In this document: piece after piece, positions 26,593-32,794 of the stretch
Layout: every line of letters begins with the position of its first letter
Numbering within the stretch: position 1 is the first letter of the stretch
From: Nitrospirota bacterium
GTDB taxonomy: Bacteria > Nitrospirota > Thermodesulfovibrionia > UBA6902 > JAJYJJ01
Assembly (NCBI GenBank): GCA_021789595.1
Contig: JAJYJJ010000015.1
Span: forward strand, 1-51,278
Reading direction: 5' to 3'
Length of the DNA: 51,278 nucleotides
Notes under the pieces: generated by a model
What the model saw: the letters and a program-made list of their open reading frames with translations, nothing else
Database searches by the model: none
What the model was told of the DNA's origin: nothing
Program-made: the position numbers and the translations under genes

Positions 26593-28800
26593 ATGCCAAA
26601 GAGGATTGATATTCCTGTTTCTGGTATGACCTGTGCCTCGTGCGCCACTGCAGTTGAAAAGGCACTCAAAGGGTTAAACGGTGTTGTCTCAGCAAATGTT
26701 AACCTTGCAACCGAGAGAGCATCTATTGAATTCATACCAGGGATGGTTGATTTTGATGATTTTAAAAAGGCTATTGATGCAGCAGGCTATAAGGCATCGC
26801 CAATAACAGAAGGGCTTATGGACCGTGAAAAGGAGGAGAGGGAAAAGGAATACAGGGATTTAAAGAAAAGATTTTTAGTAAGCCTTATACTCACCATCCC
26901 TATAGTTATTGGAAGCATCATACATATACCGGTTATCTCCAACTGGCTGTTACTTTTTATCCTTGCAACGCCTGTCCAGTTCTGGGCGGGTCTAAGGTTC
27001 TACAGGGCAGCATGGTCAGCCCTAAAACATATGACAACAAACATGAATACACTCATTGCAGTCGGCACAACCTCTGCCTATGCATACAGTATACTTGCCA
27101 CTTTTCTACCAGGCATATTTATAAAAGGTGGATTAAGGCCTGATGTGTATTTTGATACATCATCTGTGATAATAACCCTTATACTCCTTGGAAGGCTGCT
27201 TGAGGCAAAGGCAAAAGGGAGGACATCAGAGGCAATAAGGCATCTGATGGGCCTTCAGGCAAAGGTTGCAAGGATACAAAGGGACGGACAGGACAAGGAG
27301 ATACCTATAGCGGAGGTTGTGGTTGGAGATATAGTGATTATGAGGCCGGGTGAGAGAATTCCTGTTGATGGCGACATTGTAAATGGATATTCAACTATTG
27401 ATGAATCAATGCTGACAGGTGAAAGCCTCCCTGTTGAAAAATCCATGGGTGATAAGGTCTTTGGAGGCACGGTAAACAAGGCAGGGAGTTTTAAGCTTAA
27501 GGCATTAAGGATAGGTAAGGAAACAGCCCTTGCCCAGATAATAAGGCTTGTAGAGGAGGCCCAGGGAAGTAAGGCGCCGATCCAGAGACTTGCAGATAAG
27601 GTGGCATCCATATTCGTGCCATCGGTAATATCCATAGCTGTTATCACATTCATAATGTGGTTTATATTTGGGCCAAGACCATCATTTACCCTTGCTATGA
27701 TGAACTTTATAGCTGTCCTTATCATAGCCTGTCCGTGTGCCCTTGGCCTTGCAACACCAACCGCTATAATGGTCGGCACTGGAAAGGCTGCTGAAAGAGG
27801 GATACTTATAAGGGATGCAGAGGCATTGGAGCTTGCACACAGGATTCAGACAGTTGTCCTTGACAAGACAGGGACGATAACAAAGGGTGAGCCTGAGGTG
27901 ATTGATGTATATGCTACAGGGGATATAACAGAGAAAGATGCCATTGCCCTTGCAGCATCAGCAGAGAGGGTTTCTGAACATCCACTGGGCCATGCAATAG
28001 TCAGGATGGCAAAGGAAAGGGGACTCGTTCTTGATGAGCCAGATAGATTTACTGCTATTTCAGGCGGAGGGATAAAGGCAGCATTATCTGGCAGAGAGAT
28101 ATTTATTGGTAATGAGACCCTTATGTCGAAGGAGGGCATAGACATATCACCACTGAGCGGATATGCCAAACAGGTATCTGAAGGAGCCAGGACTCCTGTA
28201 TTCATGGCTATTGATAATGAGATAAAGGCGTTATTTGCAATAGCAGATACTATAAAGGAAGGCTCCATTGATGCGATAAAGGGATTAAAGGCAATGGGCA
28301 TCGAGGTATCAATGCTAACAGGTGACCACAAAAAAACAGCAGAGGCTATTACACGGATGGTTGGAGTTGATAGGTTCTTTGCAGAGGTTCATCCGGCAGA
28401 AAAGGCAGAGGTTGTCAAGTCCCTTAAGGCAGAGGGTAAGATAACTGCAATGGTCGGCGATGGGATAAACGATGCACCTGCACTTGCAGAGGCTGATGTT
28501 GGGATTGCAATAGGTACAGGCACAGACATTGCCATGGAGGCATCTGACATAACATTGATAAAGGGTGACTTGAGAAGTGTTGCAGAGGCAATAAGACTGA
28601 GCAGGCTTACCTTGAAGACCATAAAGCAGAATCTATTCTGGGCATTCTTTTATAATGTGGTCGGCATCCCTGTGGCTGCCGGACTGCTTTACCCATTTGG
28701 TGGGCCGCTCCTTAACCCGATGATAGCATCGGCAGCAATGGCATTCAGCTCGGTCTCTGTTGTGAGCAATTCTCTCCGATTAAGGGAAAAACTGTTATGA
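26593..28800 (+). CDS. copA: Copper-exporting P1B-type ATPase
   Basis: Pumps Cu+ out of the cytoplasm at the cost of ATP. The 735 residues comprise one N-terminal heavy-metal-associated domain (GMTCASC, residues 11-17), eight predicted membrane helices, the TGES actuator motif, the transmembrane CPC metal site ([12 protein letters not shown], about residue 380), the phosphorylated Asp in DKTGTIT (about 422), the HP motif in SEHPLGHAI and GDGINDAP. The last helices carry [11 protein letters not shown] and [12 protein letters not shown], the Cu+ (P1B-1) signature. Divergent from the YHS/SHOCT pair. Confidence 0.95.
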
Positions 28801-29028: not shown

Positions 29029-29700
29029 ATGCATATACCTGATGGATATTTAGGGCCAATAACATACGGAGGTTTATGGGCAGCCGTAGCGCCTGTATGG
29101 TATACTGCTGCAAAGAGAGTTAAGACAACACTGAAGGCAGCTCAGGTCCCTCTCCTTGCTCTTTCCTCTGCCTTCAGCTTTGTTATAATGATGTTTAATG
29201 TCCCAATCCCTGGCGGCACAACAGGCCACGCAACAGGTGCAACGCTTGTCGCCATACTGCTTGGCCCATGGTCAGCAGTCATAGCCATATCCATTACCAT
29301 AGTCGTTCAGGCATTTATCTTTGGCGACGGCGGTATAACAGCCATTGGTGCAAACTGTTTTAATATGGCATTTGCCGATGTCATCATGGGATACGGCATC
29401 TATAAGCTGATTAGAGGCAGCTCCCCTACTACATCAAAAAGGACAGTCATTTCCGGGGCTATAGGTGCCTATGCAGGCATAACCATCGGAGCATTCCTGA
29501 CAGGCGTTGAGCTTGGCATCCAGCCATACCTTTATAAAGGTCCTGATGGCAGGCCGCTTTACAGCCCGTTTCCGCTTAGTATAGCAGTGCCTGCAATGGT
29601 TATTGAATATGCTGTGGTCTTTGGGATAATAGAGGCGGTAATCACTGCCTTAGTGTTAATATATCTACAGAGATCAAACCCTGAACTGATAAGGGGATAG
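29029..29700 (+). CDS. cbiM: Cobalt/nickel ECF transporter substrate-specific subunit CbiM/NikM
   Basis: Integral membrane S-component that binds Co2+ or Ni2+. The mature-type N-terminus MHIPDGYLGP supplies the conserved metal-binding Met-His segment. The 223 residues hold about six membrane helices, with VPIPGGTTGHATGATLVA and FGDGGITAIGANCFNMA as family signatures. A GGAGGG Shine-Dalgarno precedes ATG 29029. Co versus Ni cannot be decided from sequence; no corrin synthesis or Ni-enzyme genes adjoin it. Confidence 0.93.
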   Translation: MHIPDGYLGPITYGGLWAAVAPVWYTAAKRVKTTLKAAQVPLLALSSAFSFVIMMFNVPIPGGTTGHATGATLVAILLGPWSAVIAISITIVVQAFIFGDGGITAIGANCFNMAFADVIMGYGIYKLIRGSSPTTSKRTVISGAIGAYAGITIGAFLTGVELGIQPYLYKGPDGRPLYSPFPLSIAVPAMVIEYAVVFGIIEAVITALVLIYLQRSNPELIRG

Positions 29701-29702
29701 CC

Positions 29703-30059
29703 ATGAAGATTTCAAATCTCAAGTCTCAAGTCTCAAATTATAAAAAACTCTGGATAGGTATTGGGATACTGATACTACTTACACCCCTTGGCTTGATTAT
29801 ACCTGAGATATTCAGGGCAGGAGGTGCATGGGGCGAATGGGGTACAGATGAGATAAAACACATAGTTGGATATGTCCCTGAAGGACTGAAACGGCTTTCT
29901 GAGATATGGTCTGCTCCCTTTCACGATTATGCATTCTCAGGCTGGGATAAAGGGATAAGGTCATATATAGCATACATTATATCAGGCCTTATTGGTGTTG
30001 CAATAGTTATTGTAGCGACATATCTTTTTGCAAAGGTCATCAAAAGGGGTGAACGATGA
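29703..30059 (+). CDS. PDGLE-type CbiN/NikN component
   Basis: A 118-residue protein with two membrane helices (about 15-37 and 90-112) and a periplasmic loop between them. It sits where CbiN or the PDGLE-domain component of Co/Ni ECF systems is always found, and has the same topology (GIGILILLTPLGLIIP near the start, HDYAFSGWD before helix 2). The first dozen residues (KISNLKSQVSNYKK) are encoded by a heptamer repeat. It overlaps the next gene by 4 bases. Confidence 0.8.
   Translation: MKISNLKSQVSNYKKLWIGIGILILLTPLGLIIPEIFRAGGAWGEWGTDEIKHIVGYVPEGLKRLSEIWSAPFHDYAFSGWDKGIRSYIAYIISGLIGVAIVIVATYLFAKVIKRGER
29711..29737. repeat. Short direct repeats at the 5' end of the CbiN-like gene
   Basis: TCAAATC, TCAAGTC, TCAAGTC and TCAAATT follow in tandem with a 7-base period right after the start codon. 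They encode part of a non-conserved N-terminus. Confidence 0.6.
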
Positions 30060-30256
30060 ATGAGCTTGAGAAACTAAAAAGACTGCTCCGCCACTGGATG
30101 CAGCACAATGATGAACACGCAGAGGTTTACATGGATTGGGCAGAAAAGGCATCGTCTCTTGGCAAAGAAGAATTATCAGAGGTTTTAAGCAGCCTTTATC
30201 ATGAGACCAGGAAACTGGATGGACTTTTTGAAGAAGCCATAAGGAAGACTGATTAA
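30056..30256 (+). CDS. Small HW-H-H-Y-WAEK domain protein of the cbi operon
   Basis: A 66-residue soluble helical protein with the conserved core LLRHWMQHNDEHAEVYMDWAEK shortened here as HW-x2-H-x3-H-x3-Y-x2-WAEK. About 40% of its residues are identical to the C-terminal 64 residues of CbiO in the same operon, so the two are paralogous domains. The spaced histidines could bind metal. No function is known to me; it is likely a regulator or metal-handling accessory of the transporter. Overlaps the CbiN-like gene by 4 bases. Confidence 0.75.
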   Translation: MNELEKLKRLLRHWMQHNDEHAEVYMDWAEKASSLGKEELSEVLSSLYHETRKLDGLFEEAIRKTD

Positions 30257-30282
30257 GCCAGAAAAACCATGCAGGCCAGGCA

Positions 30283-31215
30283 ATGCTACAAATAAAGATG
30301 GAAATACCAGAGTGGCTGATTGAGAGGCAAACACCTGCACAGTTAGCAGTCAGGCAGCCAAAAGAGGGCTTTGCAGATAAGACCTTAAGGCATGTCCTTT
30401 CCTTTATAAAAGGCACACTCTTTAATGAGGGCATCTCATCAAAGAAAGGGTTTATGCAGCATATTGAACCAAGGGTCAAGGCGCTGAGTCTTATTGGCCT
30501 CATTGTGGTTTTAAGCTTTTTAAAGGATGCCAGGGCCATATCCTTATTCCTTGTTCTGTCAATAATACTATACCTGTATTCGAGGATACCCATTATGCTT
30601 TACCTTAAAAAACTCATGCCTGTTGTGCTCGTTACCATATTCATCTCACTGCCTGCGGCATTGAACCTGATAGTAAAAGGCGATGCTGTTTTTACACTGT
30701 TCAGCCTCTCAAGGGACTATACCATTGGCCCGTGGTATATACAAAAGGAGATAGCCCTTACAAGGCAGGGCATACATAGTGTGTTGATGCTGAATCTCAG
30801 GGTCTTAACATCTATTTCCCTTGCCATGCTTATCGCACTAACGACAAAGCCAGAGAGTATGGTTAAGGCAATCTCCTCTCTCCTGCCAGGGCCGTTTAAT
30901 CTCATAGTCTCGATAAGCTACAGATATATCTTTTTTCTTTTAAAAAGGGTAGAGCAGTCAATAATGGCATTAAAAAGCAGGAGCCTGGGCAGAATAAGCA
31001 CGAAAGGCCAGCAGAGATGGGTTGCATCGAGGATGGGTTTTCTGTTTTCTTTGAGCTACAGGCTCAGCGAGGATCTCTATAAGGCCATGGAGGCAAGGGG
31101 TTACAAAGGTGAAACAAAGGTCATTGATATATTCAGGATTACAGCCATGGATATAATCTGGTCTGTCTTCTGCATAATATTTTCAGCGGTGATACTGTGG
31201 AAGTTTTCGAGCTAA
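30283..31215 (+). CDS. cbiQ: ECF transporter transmembrane subunit CbiQ/NikQ
   Basis: Energy-coupling membrane component that links the S-component to the ATPase. The 310 residues include several hydrophobic helices and the coupling-helix motifs SMVKAISSL-like TKPESMVKAISSLLPGP and ALKSRSLGR, with EARGYKGE-like MEARGYKG near the end. The N-terminal 60 residues are a soluble extension. It overlaps cbiO by 19 bases. Confidence 0.9.
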   Translation: MLQIKMEIPEWLIERQTPAQLAVRQPKEGFADKTLRHVLSFIKGTLFNEGISSKKGFMQHIEPRVKALSLIGLIVVLSFLKDARAISLFLVLSIILYLYSRIPIMLYLKKLMPVVLVTIFISLPAALNLIVKGDAVFTLFSLSRDYTIGPWYIQKEIALTRQGIHSVLMLNLRVLTSISLAMLIALTTKPESMVKAISSLLPGPFNLIVSISYRYIFFLLKRVEQSIMALKSRSLGRISTKGQQRWVASRMGFLFSLSYRLSEDLYKAMEARGYKGETKVIDIFRITAMDIIWSVFCIIFSAVILWKFSS

Positions 31216-32234
31216 AGGATGTTTTTTATCTGCATCCTGGAGAAAGACCTGCACTTTCTGGTGTGTCCTTCAGTGTAAAGGATGGAGAAAGCCTCACCAT
31301 CCTTGGGGCAAATGGCTCTGGAAAGTCGACCCTCTTATTTCTGCTTGATGGTCTCATAACACCAAGGAGTGGGATGATAAAGGCCTTTGGCAGGGATATA
31401 GGGAACGGTCTTTTGCCAGAATTAAGGCAGAGGGTCTCGATCCTGTTTCAAAACCCGCAGGTCCAGCTTTTTTCTCTAACCGTATGGGATGAGCTCTGCT
31501 TTGGCCCGATACAGCTCGGGCTTGTAAAGGAGGAGGTCACAAAAAGGGCAGAAGATGTCCTTCATCTACTTGGCATAGAGCATCTGCAGGACAGAGGGCC
31601 CTGGAACCTAAGCGGCGGCGAGATGAAAAAGGTAGCGCTCGGCACATGCCTGATCACAAACCCTGATGTCATACTACTTGATGAGCCCACAACTGGTCTT
31701 GACCCAAGGAGTCAGGTAGAATTTATCGAACTGATTAACAGCTTAAGGGATGCTAAAAAGACAGTAATAACAGCAACGCACGACCTGGATATAATAGAGG
31801 ATATCTCTGAAAAAACTATTGTGTTCGGTGAGAATCACAGGATTATAGCTGAAGCCCGCCCATACGAGGTTATTAACGATACAGGGCTTCTGCTTGATGC
31901 CAACCTCATACATGCCCATGCCCATAAACACAGAGAGATAGTCCACAGCCACGGCCATTATTCTGCACACAGCCATGAACACCTTATGGATAGGATTATG
32001 GCAGAATCCCCCAGAAGTCCCATGGCCTCTGGAGGAAAAAATGAGATAGAAAAGCTCAGGATACTTCTTGACCACTGGATTGAACACAGTGAATCGCACA
32101 GGGATAGCTATATAAGCTGGGCTGAAAAGATGGAGGGAATTGGGAGGGCAGATGTTGCAGAGGTTTTAAGAAAGGCATCTTCAGAGACCCAGGAGGTTGA
32201 CAAACTTTTTAGAAAGGCAAAGGCAATGCTTTAG
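31197..32234 (+). CDS. cbiO: ECF transporter ATPase CbiO with His-rich linker and C-terminal domain
   Basis: ABC ATPase powering Co/Ni uptake. Residues 1-230 are a standard ECF ATPase with Walker A (GANGSGKSTL), signature LSGGEMKKVALG, and Walker B VILLDEPTTGLDP. Unusually, residues about 238-262 are a linker with ten histidines, mostly alternating (HAHAHKH, HSHGHYSAHSHEH). A C-terminal domain (about 282-345) is homologous to the small protein encoded three genes upstream. At 345 residues it is about 70-100 longer than a plain CbiO. Start GTG 31197 lies inside cbiQ. Confidence 0.93.
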   Translation: MEVFELKDVFYLHPGERPALSGVSFSVKDGESLTILGANGSGKSTLLFLLDGLITPRSGMIKAFGRDIGNGLLPELRQRVSILFQNPQVQLFSLTVWDELCFGPIQLGLVKEEVTKRAEDVLHLLGIEHLQDRGPWNLSGGEMKKVALGTCLITNPDVILLDEPTTGLDPRSQVEFIELINSLRDAKKTVITATHDLDIIEDISEKTIVFGENHRIIAEARPYEVINDTGLLLDANLIHAHAHKHREIVHSHGHYSAHSHEHLMDRIMAESPRSPMASGGKNEIEKLRILLDHWIEHSESHRDSYISWAEKMEGIGRADVAEVLRKASSETQEVDKLFRKAKAML

Positions 32235-32275: not shown

Positions 32276-32794
32276 ATGCGTTATAAAAAGATATTAGTTC
32301 TATCATTTATAGGTATTGCCCTTGTTGCAGGCATGCTGGCCTATTACTTTCTCTGGCATGAAAGGCAGGTTGACTTAGTATATTTTTATGACCCCCGCTG
32401 TCCCAATTGCAGGGCAGTGGAGCCGTATATATCATTGTTGGAAAAGGAGCTTAAAAAGAAAGATATTCATTTTGAACGATGCAGCGTCCCAGATGTAGAT
32501 ACCTGCTCTGTAAAGGCCAGGTTTATCCTGTATACCATATACCCAAAAGGCAATATAAGGATACCAACCGTAGGCGTCAAACACAGTAAAAACATATCAG
32601 TATTTATTGGCAGACTTGATGTCATTAAAGTCGGCTCTTATCTCAATAAGAACTTTGGAGTCCCCGAGGTCAAGGCGCAACTGCAAGATGTGAATTACCC
32701 AGTAGAGGAATGTTTAAAATGCCATCAGGAAAGAAACATTAAGCCGCCTTCAACCTACACATGCACCTACTGCTGCCATAATGCAAAAAAGTGA
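32276..32794 (+). CDS. Membrane-anchored thioredoxin-like protein with CXXCH motif
   Basis: One N-terminal membrane helix (about 6-26) anchors a 172-residue periplasmic protein. The thioredoxin-fold part has a CPNC redox motif (Cys42, Cys45; FYDPRCPNC) and the cis-Pro region RIPTVGV. Near the C-terminus there is CLKCH (146-150), a c-type heme-binding motif, and a cysteine-rich tail CTYCCH. It may couple disulfide and heme chemistry, or the motif may bind metal. Located between the Co/Ni operon and convergent moaC; partners unknown. Confidence 0.75.
   Translation: MRYKKILVLSFIGIALVAGMLAYYFLWHERQVDLVYFYDPRCPNCRAVEPYISLLEKELKKKDIHFERCSVPDVDTCSVKARFILYTIYPKGNIRIPTVGVKHSKNISVFIGRLDVIKVGSYLNKNFGVPEVKAQLQDVNYPVEECLKCHQERNIKPPSTYTCTYCCHNAKK

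Follow-up and report, generated by a model that had tools for sequence, protein, structure and literature searches.

An ECF-type cobalt/nickel transporter operon of a Nitrospirota bacterium encodes a small histidine-bearing domain twice, once as a free protein and once fused to the transporter's ATPase, which raises the question of what such a domain does at a metal importer. The operon lies within 51,278 nucleotides of contig JAJYJJ010000015.1, the whole stretch that we analysed and refer to as the window. Its gene order, M-N-free domain-Q-O::domain (29029-32234), was upheld by Pfam, and its features are listed here with the domain named as argued below.

29029..29700, plus strand: CbiM/NikM substrate-specific subunit (Pfam CbiM, 1.7e-59; NCBIfam)
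29703..30059, plus strand: PDGLE-type N subunit (Pfam PDGLE, 5.2e-9)
30056..30256, plus strand: free CooJ-like two-helix domain protein, 66 aa (putative Ni-site motif HWMQHNDEH at 30092-30118)
30283..31215, plus strand: CbiQ/NikQ transmembrane coupling subunit (Pfam CbiQ, 3.4e-22; NCBIfam)
31197..32234, plus strand: CbiO/NikO-type ECF ATPase with C-terminal CooJ-like domain, 345 aa (Pfam ABC_tran, 7.6e-31; NCBIfam)
31908..31982, plus strand: His-rich tail or linker of CbiO, IHAHAHKHREIVHSHGHYSAHSHEH, with ten histidines (sequence reading)
32037..32231, plus strand: CooJ-like domain fused to CbiO (motif HWIEHSESH at 32073-32099)

The M, Q and O subunits expected of a CbiMNQO/NikMNQO ECF transporter were all found by Pfam and NCBIfam, and the ATPase motifs of CbiO are intact (Walker A GANGSGKST, signature LSGGE, Walker B VILLDEP). 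In Pfam, the N subunit matched PDGLE and not CbiN, and the NCBIfam CbiN models gave E values of 0.002-0.003, far under their cut-off. The operon thus resembles group I ECF operons in holding M, N (PDGLE), Q and O together, but differs from CbiMNQO and NikMNQO in the extra free gene between N and Q and the extra domain on CbiO, and from CbiMNQO also in its N subunit, which falls outside the CbiN family. The start codon of the 66-residue ORF and the stop codon of the N gene share the four letters ATGA, preceded by a AAAAGGGG stretch, so that the ORF looks like a real, translationally coupled gene. Directly 3' of the operon lies a gene for a thioredoxin-like protein with an N-terminal hydrophobic stretch, C-terminal CxxCH/CxxC motifs and a weak Pfam match (32276-32794). 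Upstream on the same strand is a copper-type P-type ATPase with an N-terminal metal-binding motif (26593-28800), from which genes for YHS-domain and SHOCT proteins diverge, and the 5' end of a 16S rRNA gene occupies the contig edge (1-82, minus strand).

We compared the 66-residue protein with the last 64 residues of CbiO in a single BLASTP comparison, and found 26 of 60 residues identical (43%) and 43 of 60 positive (E 4e-17). The sequence-only reading, which had claimed a twice-encoded domain with about 40% identity and a common motif, was thus borne out, both copies being in place. The common motif reads HWMQHNDEH...YMDWAEK in the free protein (residues 13-31) and HWIEHSESH...YISWAEK in CbiO (residues 293-311), and the linker ahead of the fused copy holds exactly the ten histidines counted earlier (CbiO residues 239-262). 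The window's genome (2.23 Mb, 99% complete) has these two copies and no third. AlphaFold2 predicted the free copy, as a monomer, to be a two-helix hairpin (helices 3-34 and 38-65, pLDDT 97.5), and predicted the same fold for a relative encoded beside cooT. Judging from their i, i+4, i+8 spacing, H13, H17 and H21 would share one face of the first helix, which Y25 and W28 would extend. Searching the window against Pfam and NCBIfam returned no family model for the domain, a plasmid search gave no match, and the literature searched made no mention of DUF8180, a possible name for the domain.

We then analysed the spread and conservation of the domain. When the window copies were aligned with six relatives, the resulting profile detected it in 148 of 396 genomes of Nitrospirota, the window's own phylum. 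A wider profile detected it in 110 of 297 genomes of a second phylum, that of a Syntrophaceae locus (L005) and probably Desulfobacterota. W14, H17 and W28 are invariant among 79 Nitrospirota copies, with K6, L7, H13, H21, Y25 and A29 each conserved in at least 90%. The histidines noted earlier are likewise conserved, since the exact pattern H[WF]x2Hx3H occurs in 120 of 130 distinct family members from both phyla.

From the match lists, we chose 140 loci by rank and diversity (80 from Nitrospirota and 60 from the second phylum); the fractions that follow describe this sample, in which some flanks end at contig edges. Among the 80 Nitrospirota loci, 32 have the domain as a fusion to CbiO and 22 have it as a free gene within a CbiM/Q operon, a group that L072, adjoining a CbiN-type gene, can join. 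The domain adjoins cooT in three loci and a NicO/UreH-like permease with a His-rich loop (Pfam DsbD_2) in four; the loop and an HxxxxxDH motif suggest that this permease is of the Ni/Co type. Three further loci place it close to TonB receptors, one places it close to NikR/NikK/NikL components, and 15 have none of these contexts. NikR (PF08753) was found on the same strand in 13 of the 80, ten of them CbiO fusions, and relatives of NikK (DUF4198) and NikL also occur among the loci examined. The tie to Co/Ni ECF operons in Nitrospirota is strong, and the earlier view of a metal-related cytoplasmic domain is supported. Confinement to such operons, for which a profile search had been proposed, does not hold: only three of the 60 second-phylum loci have CbiM/Q, and for 47 the scan recognised no metal neighbour, although some of these do have cooT in a more sensitive scan. 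Given the rarity of CbiM/Q in the second phylum, the domain is a module of general use that was taken up by ECF operons in one phylum.

The same sensitive scan placed cooT within 180 bp and on the same strand in 15 of the 140 loci, and the neighbours belong to PF10133 in the three tested. As there is about one cooT per genome, we estimate that chance would put it that close in well under one locus. The window's own copies are not adjacent to cooT, and no gene like the CODHs of the window's genome lies near any examined copy (phmmer, E<=1e-20).

Several other arrangements were observed. Two loci (L098 and L108) combine TonB receptors, a NikA-related family 5 solute-binding protein and a gene for the domain, and are candidate outer-membrane nickel uptake loci. 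Within CbiM/CbiQ operons, the domain is also fused ahead of a PNPOx/F420-type split-barrel domain (L112:6606-7310, L114:2902-3795). In the second phylum, it is fused behind a thioredoxin domain (L210:5970-6557, L213:5229-5798). Directly after cooT, a copy carrying YWVGHNKAH is fused ahead of a TrmO-type tRNA methyltransferase domain (L211:4962-5759).

The sequence-only reading knew of no assigned function, but the nickel protein CooJ is indicated by the motif, by the partnership with cooT and by a weak structural-database match. The HW-x2-H-x3-H pattern is one that we take to be the H(W/F)x2Hx3H motif of CooJ, a nickel-binding CODH accessory protein. The R. rubrum protein was reportedly described by Watt and Ludden in 1998, and the title of a 2019 paper by Alfano and colleagues names an unexpected Ni(II)-binding site in a dimer that is multidomain and histidine-rich. 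Both window copies carry the CooJ-type motif, as do 120 of 130 relatives. In searches of 177,635 PDB chains, a phmmer query with a cooT-linked relative reached 6HK5, CooJ of Rhodospirillum rubrum, at a non-significant E of 0.4, with HFLDHVEGH aligned exactly to HWIEHNQGH. Two profiles matched almost the full CooJ chain (E 0.99 and 0.75, not significant alone). Shuffled CooJ pieces scored as high in about 2.2% of cases with the motif fixed, and in 0-1 of 2000 when fully shuffled. Only cooT-linked or broad queries reached CooJ in the PDB; the narrow profile A1, the Nitrospirota profile A2 and two other cooT-linked single queries did not. An hhalign comparison of A2 with the CooJ piece gave a probability of 3.9%, aligning the motif alone, and Foldseek searches with two models returned generic helical hairpins, with 6HK5 not among the best 50 matches listed.

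Because of the motif, the weak 6HK5 match and the cooT partnership, which does not depend on any sequence score, we call the domain CooJ-like; the window proteins are not classed as CooJ itself, since a His tail is missing from the free copy and the CooJ score is not significant. The likeness to R. rubrum CooJ lies in a helical domain of about 65 residues with the H(W/F)x2Hx3H motif in its first helix, in the His-rich extensions of many relatives and in the 15 relatives beside cooT. The differences are a low overall identity, the lack of a CODH operon at the window locus, the absence from the free copy of the variable C-terminal His-rich tail, and the fusion of one copy to an ATPase, with the His-rich stretch ahead of the domain. 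The pairing of cooT with cooJ is known in R. rubrum and Citrobacter (PMC6006190), and a 2026 survey listed 68 CooJ candidates (PMC13056359).

Which metal the transporter carries was considered separately. CbiN has been called cobalt-specific (Zhang et al. 2009, PMC2667541). Since relatives have NikR and the window has a PDGLE N subunit instead of CbiN, the balance leans towards nickel rather than cobalt. For the window itself this assignment rests on analogy, because its genome has no NikR, its NikR-type palindromes (26 matches versus 21.4 expected) are not beyond chance, and Rfam found no riboswitch in it. Elsewhere, the genome encodes three Ni-CODHs, one NiFe(Se) hydrogenase and one CooT. 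The hydrogenase large subunit gene (L247; G000:C16:78501-80051) contains two in-frame TGA codons, which are perhaps selenocysteines.

We also examined the linker and the history of the fusion. A view in which the His-rich linker belongs to the small domain is not supported. The linker is the conserved tail of Nitrospirota CbiO itself (LLLxANLIHxHxHxH...HEHSH...HEH), present with or without a following domain, with typically 9-12 and up to 30 histidines. A second CbiO subtype (ending ...ENNLELPLSLQ) lacks it but is fused to the domain as well. Among fused relatives, the linker measures 33-118 residues, and a separate domain gene often follows cbiO in place of the fusion. His-rich stretches recur near the domain in other positions also, N-terminally in L161, L167, L170 and L178 and C-terminally in L196, L199 and L204. 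In a tree with few well-supported forks, the free window copy groups with free copies and the fused copy with CbiO-fused ones, so that the two are old paralogues, and a recent tandem duplication as their origin is unsupported. The fusion state changed at least twice judging by well-supported branches, and ten times by parsimony on the drawn tree, a rough figure from few alignment columns. Free and fused copies also coexist in two other genomes (G264 and G352).

Taken on balance, we favour, with about even confidence, a reading of the domain as a dimerisation module of the CooJ type, which would bind Ni(II) and, in its free and tethered forms, pick up metal where it leaves the transporter, to pass it on or store it. 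We infer the binding of metal, its identity as nickel, dimerisation, and the steps of capture and hand-over. The first-helix face carrying H13, H17, H21, W14, Y25 and W28 would be where two copies meet and bind metal. On release by CbiMNQO into the cytosol, metal would first encounter the His-rich tail of CbiO and the tethered domains, of which a transporter with a CbiO homodimer would have two. By exchange it would then reach the soluble copy, to be stored or delivered to nickel enzymes such as the CODHs and the hydrogenase; by analogy with CooJ, which forms a dimer, free and bound copies could plausibly pair. We favour capture because the tether is dispensable, because the domain also stands beside unrelated permeases and cooT, and because the His-rich stretches occur in varied places.

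The sharpest rival is feedback of the ModC kind, which we consider improbable though better placed than the other alternatives. Here, a Ni- or Co-bridged dimer of CbiO tails would hold the ATPases apart (transinhibition), with the free copy tuning the effect by heterodimerising. The position of the domain at the ATPase C-terminus and the location of the counterpart motif at the CooJ dimer interface are consistent with such a gate, and the repeated fusion changes suggest that the tether was favoured repeatedly. Like the window CbiO, the ATPases of MetNI and ModABC carry a C-terminal domain, and ModC binds molybdate at the dimer interface of those domains, but they have no known kinship to the window domain, which also occurs free and outside ABC transporters. 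In many operons the domain is a separate gene, and beside cooT or the single-polypeptide permeases without NBDs (L066, L067, L074 and L076) its role could not be ATPase gating. A long flexible linker also suits capture better than rigid gating. Since the tether is not essential and a separate gene often takes its place after cbiO, the pattern is better explained by a chaperone than by an obligate NBD gate.

Less probable still, and in our view doubtful, is a plain cytoplasmic buffer or store, in which domain and His tail would do no more than increase the local capacity for metal, taking no part in delivery or gating. Two roles have been proposed for CooJ, and storage is one of them, in line with this view, as is the recurrence of His-rich stretches in different places; the conserved Trp/Tyr stripe and the cooT pairing suggest instead a specific site and partner. 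We regard an iron-binding or redox half bundle of the ferritin-like/rubrerythrin type as very unlikely. The domain shares the two-helix hairpin with such proteins and gave weak profile matches to EncFtn-like proteins (16 of 79 members, best 6e-5) and to sulerythrin (1.3e-6 with profile A3), and its best Foldseek matches were rubrerythrins (E 0.16-0.23, TM about 0.8 across the hairpin). The sulerythrin alignment, however, leaves out the His motif, the conserved residues form a His/Trp/Tyr stripe, no invariant or near-invariant column of A2 or A3 is Glu, in contrast to the Glu/ExxH di-iron carboxylate ligands of rubrerythrin and EncFtn, and the gene contexts are those of nickel/cobalt, not iron.

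The capture and hand-over reading, ranked over these three, can be put in a more specific form, which we hold only tentatively: a metallochaperone built into the Nitrospirota nickel ECF ATPase would take Ni(II) at the exit and exchange it by hetero-dimerisation with its soluble paralogue. These results bear on how imported nickel, which is toxic, reaches its enzyme without being free in the cytosol. CooJ has been treated as a rare CODH accessory protein, whereas the CooJ-like family described here occurs in about a third of the genomes of two phyla and, in Nitrospirota, is mostly attached to, or encoded with, a nickel/cobalt importer. With the domain on the pump, incoming metal may be captured or sensed at the transporter itself. 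Overall, the finding provides a direct and testable connection from importer to chaperone, and it gives many small, unnamed proteins a likely function.
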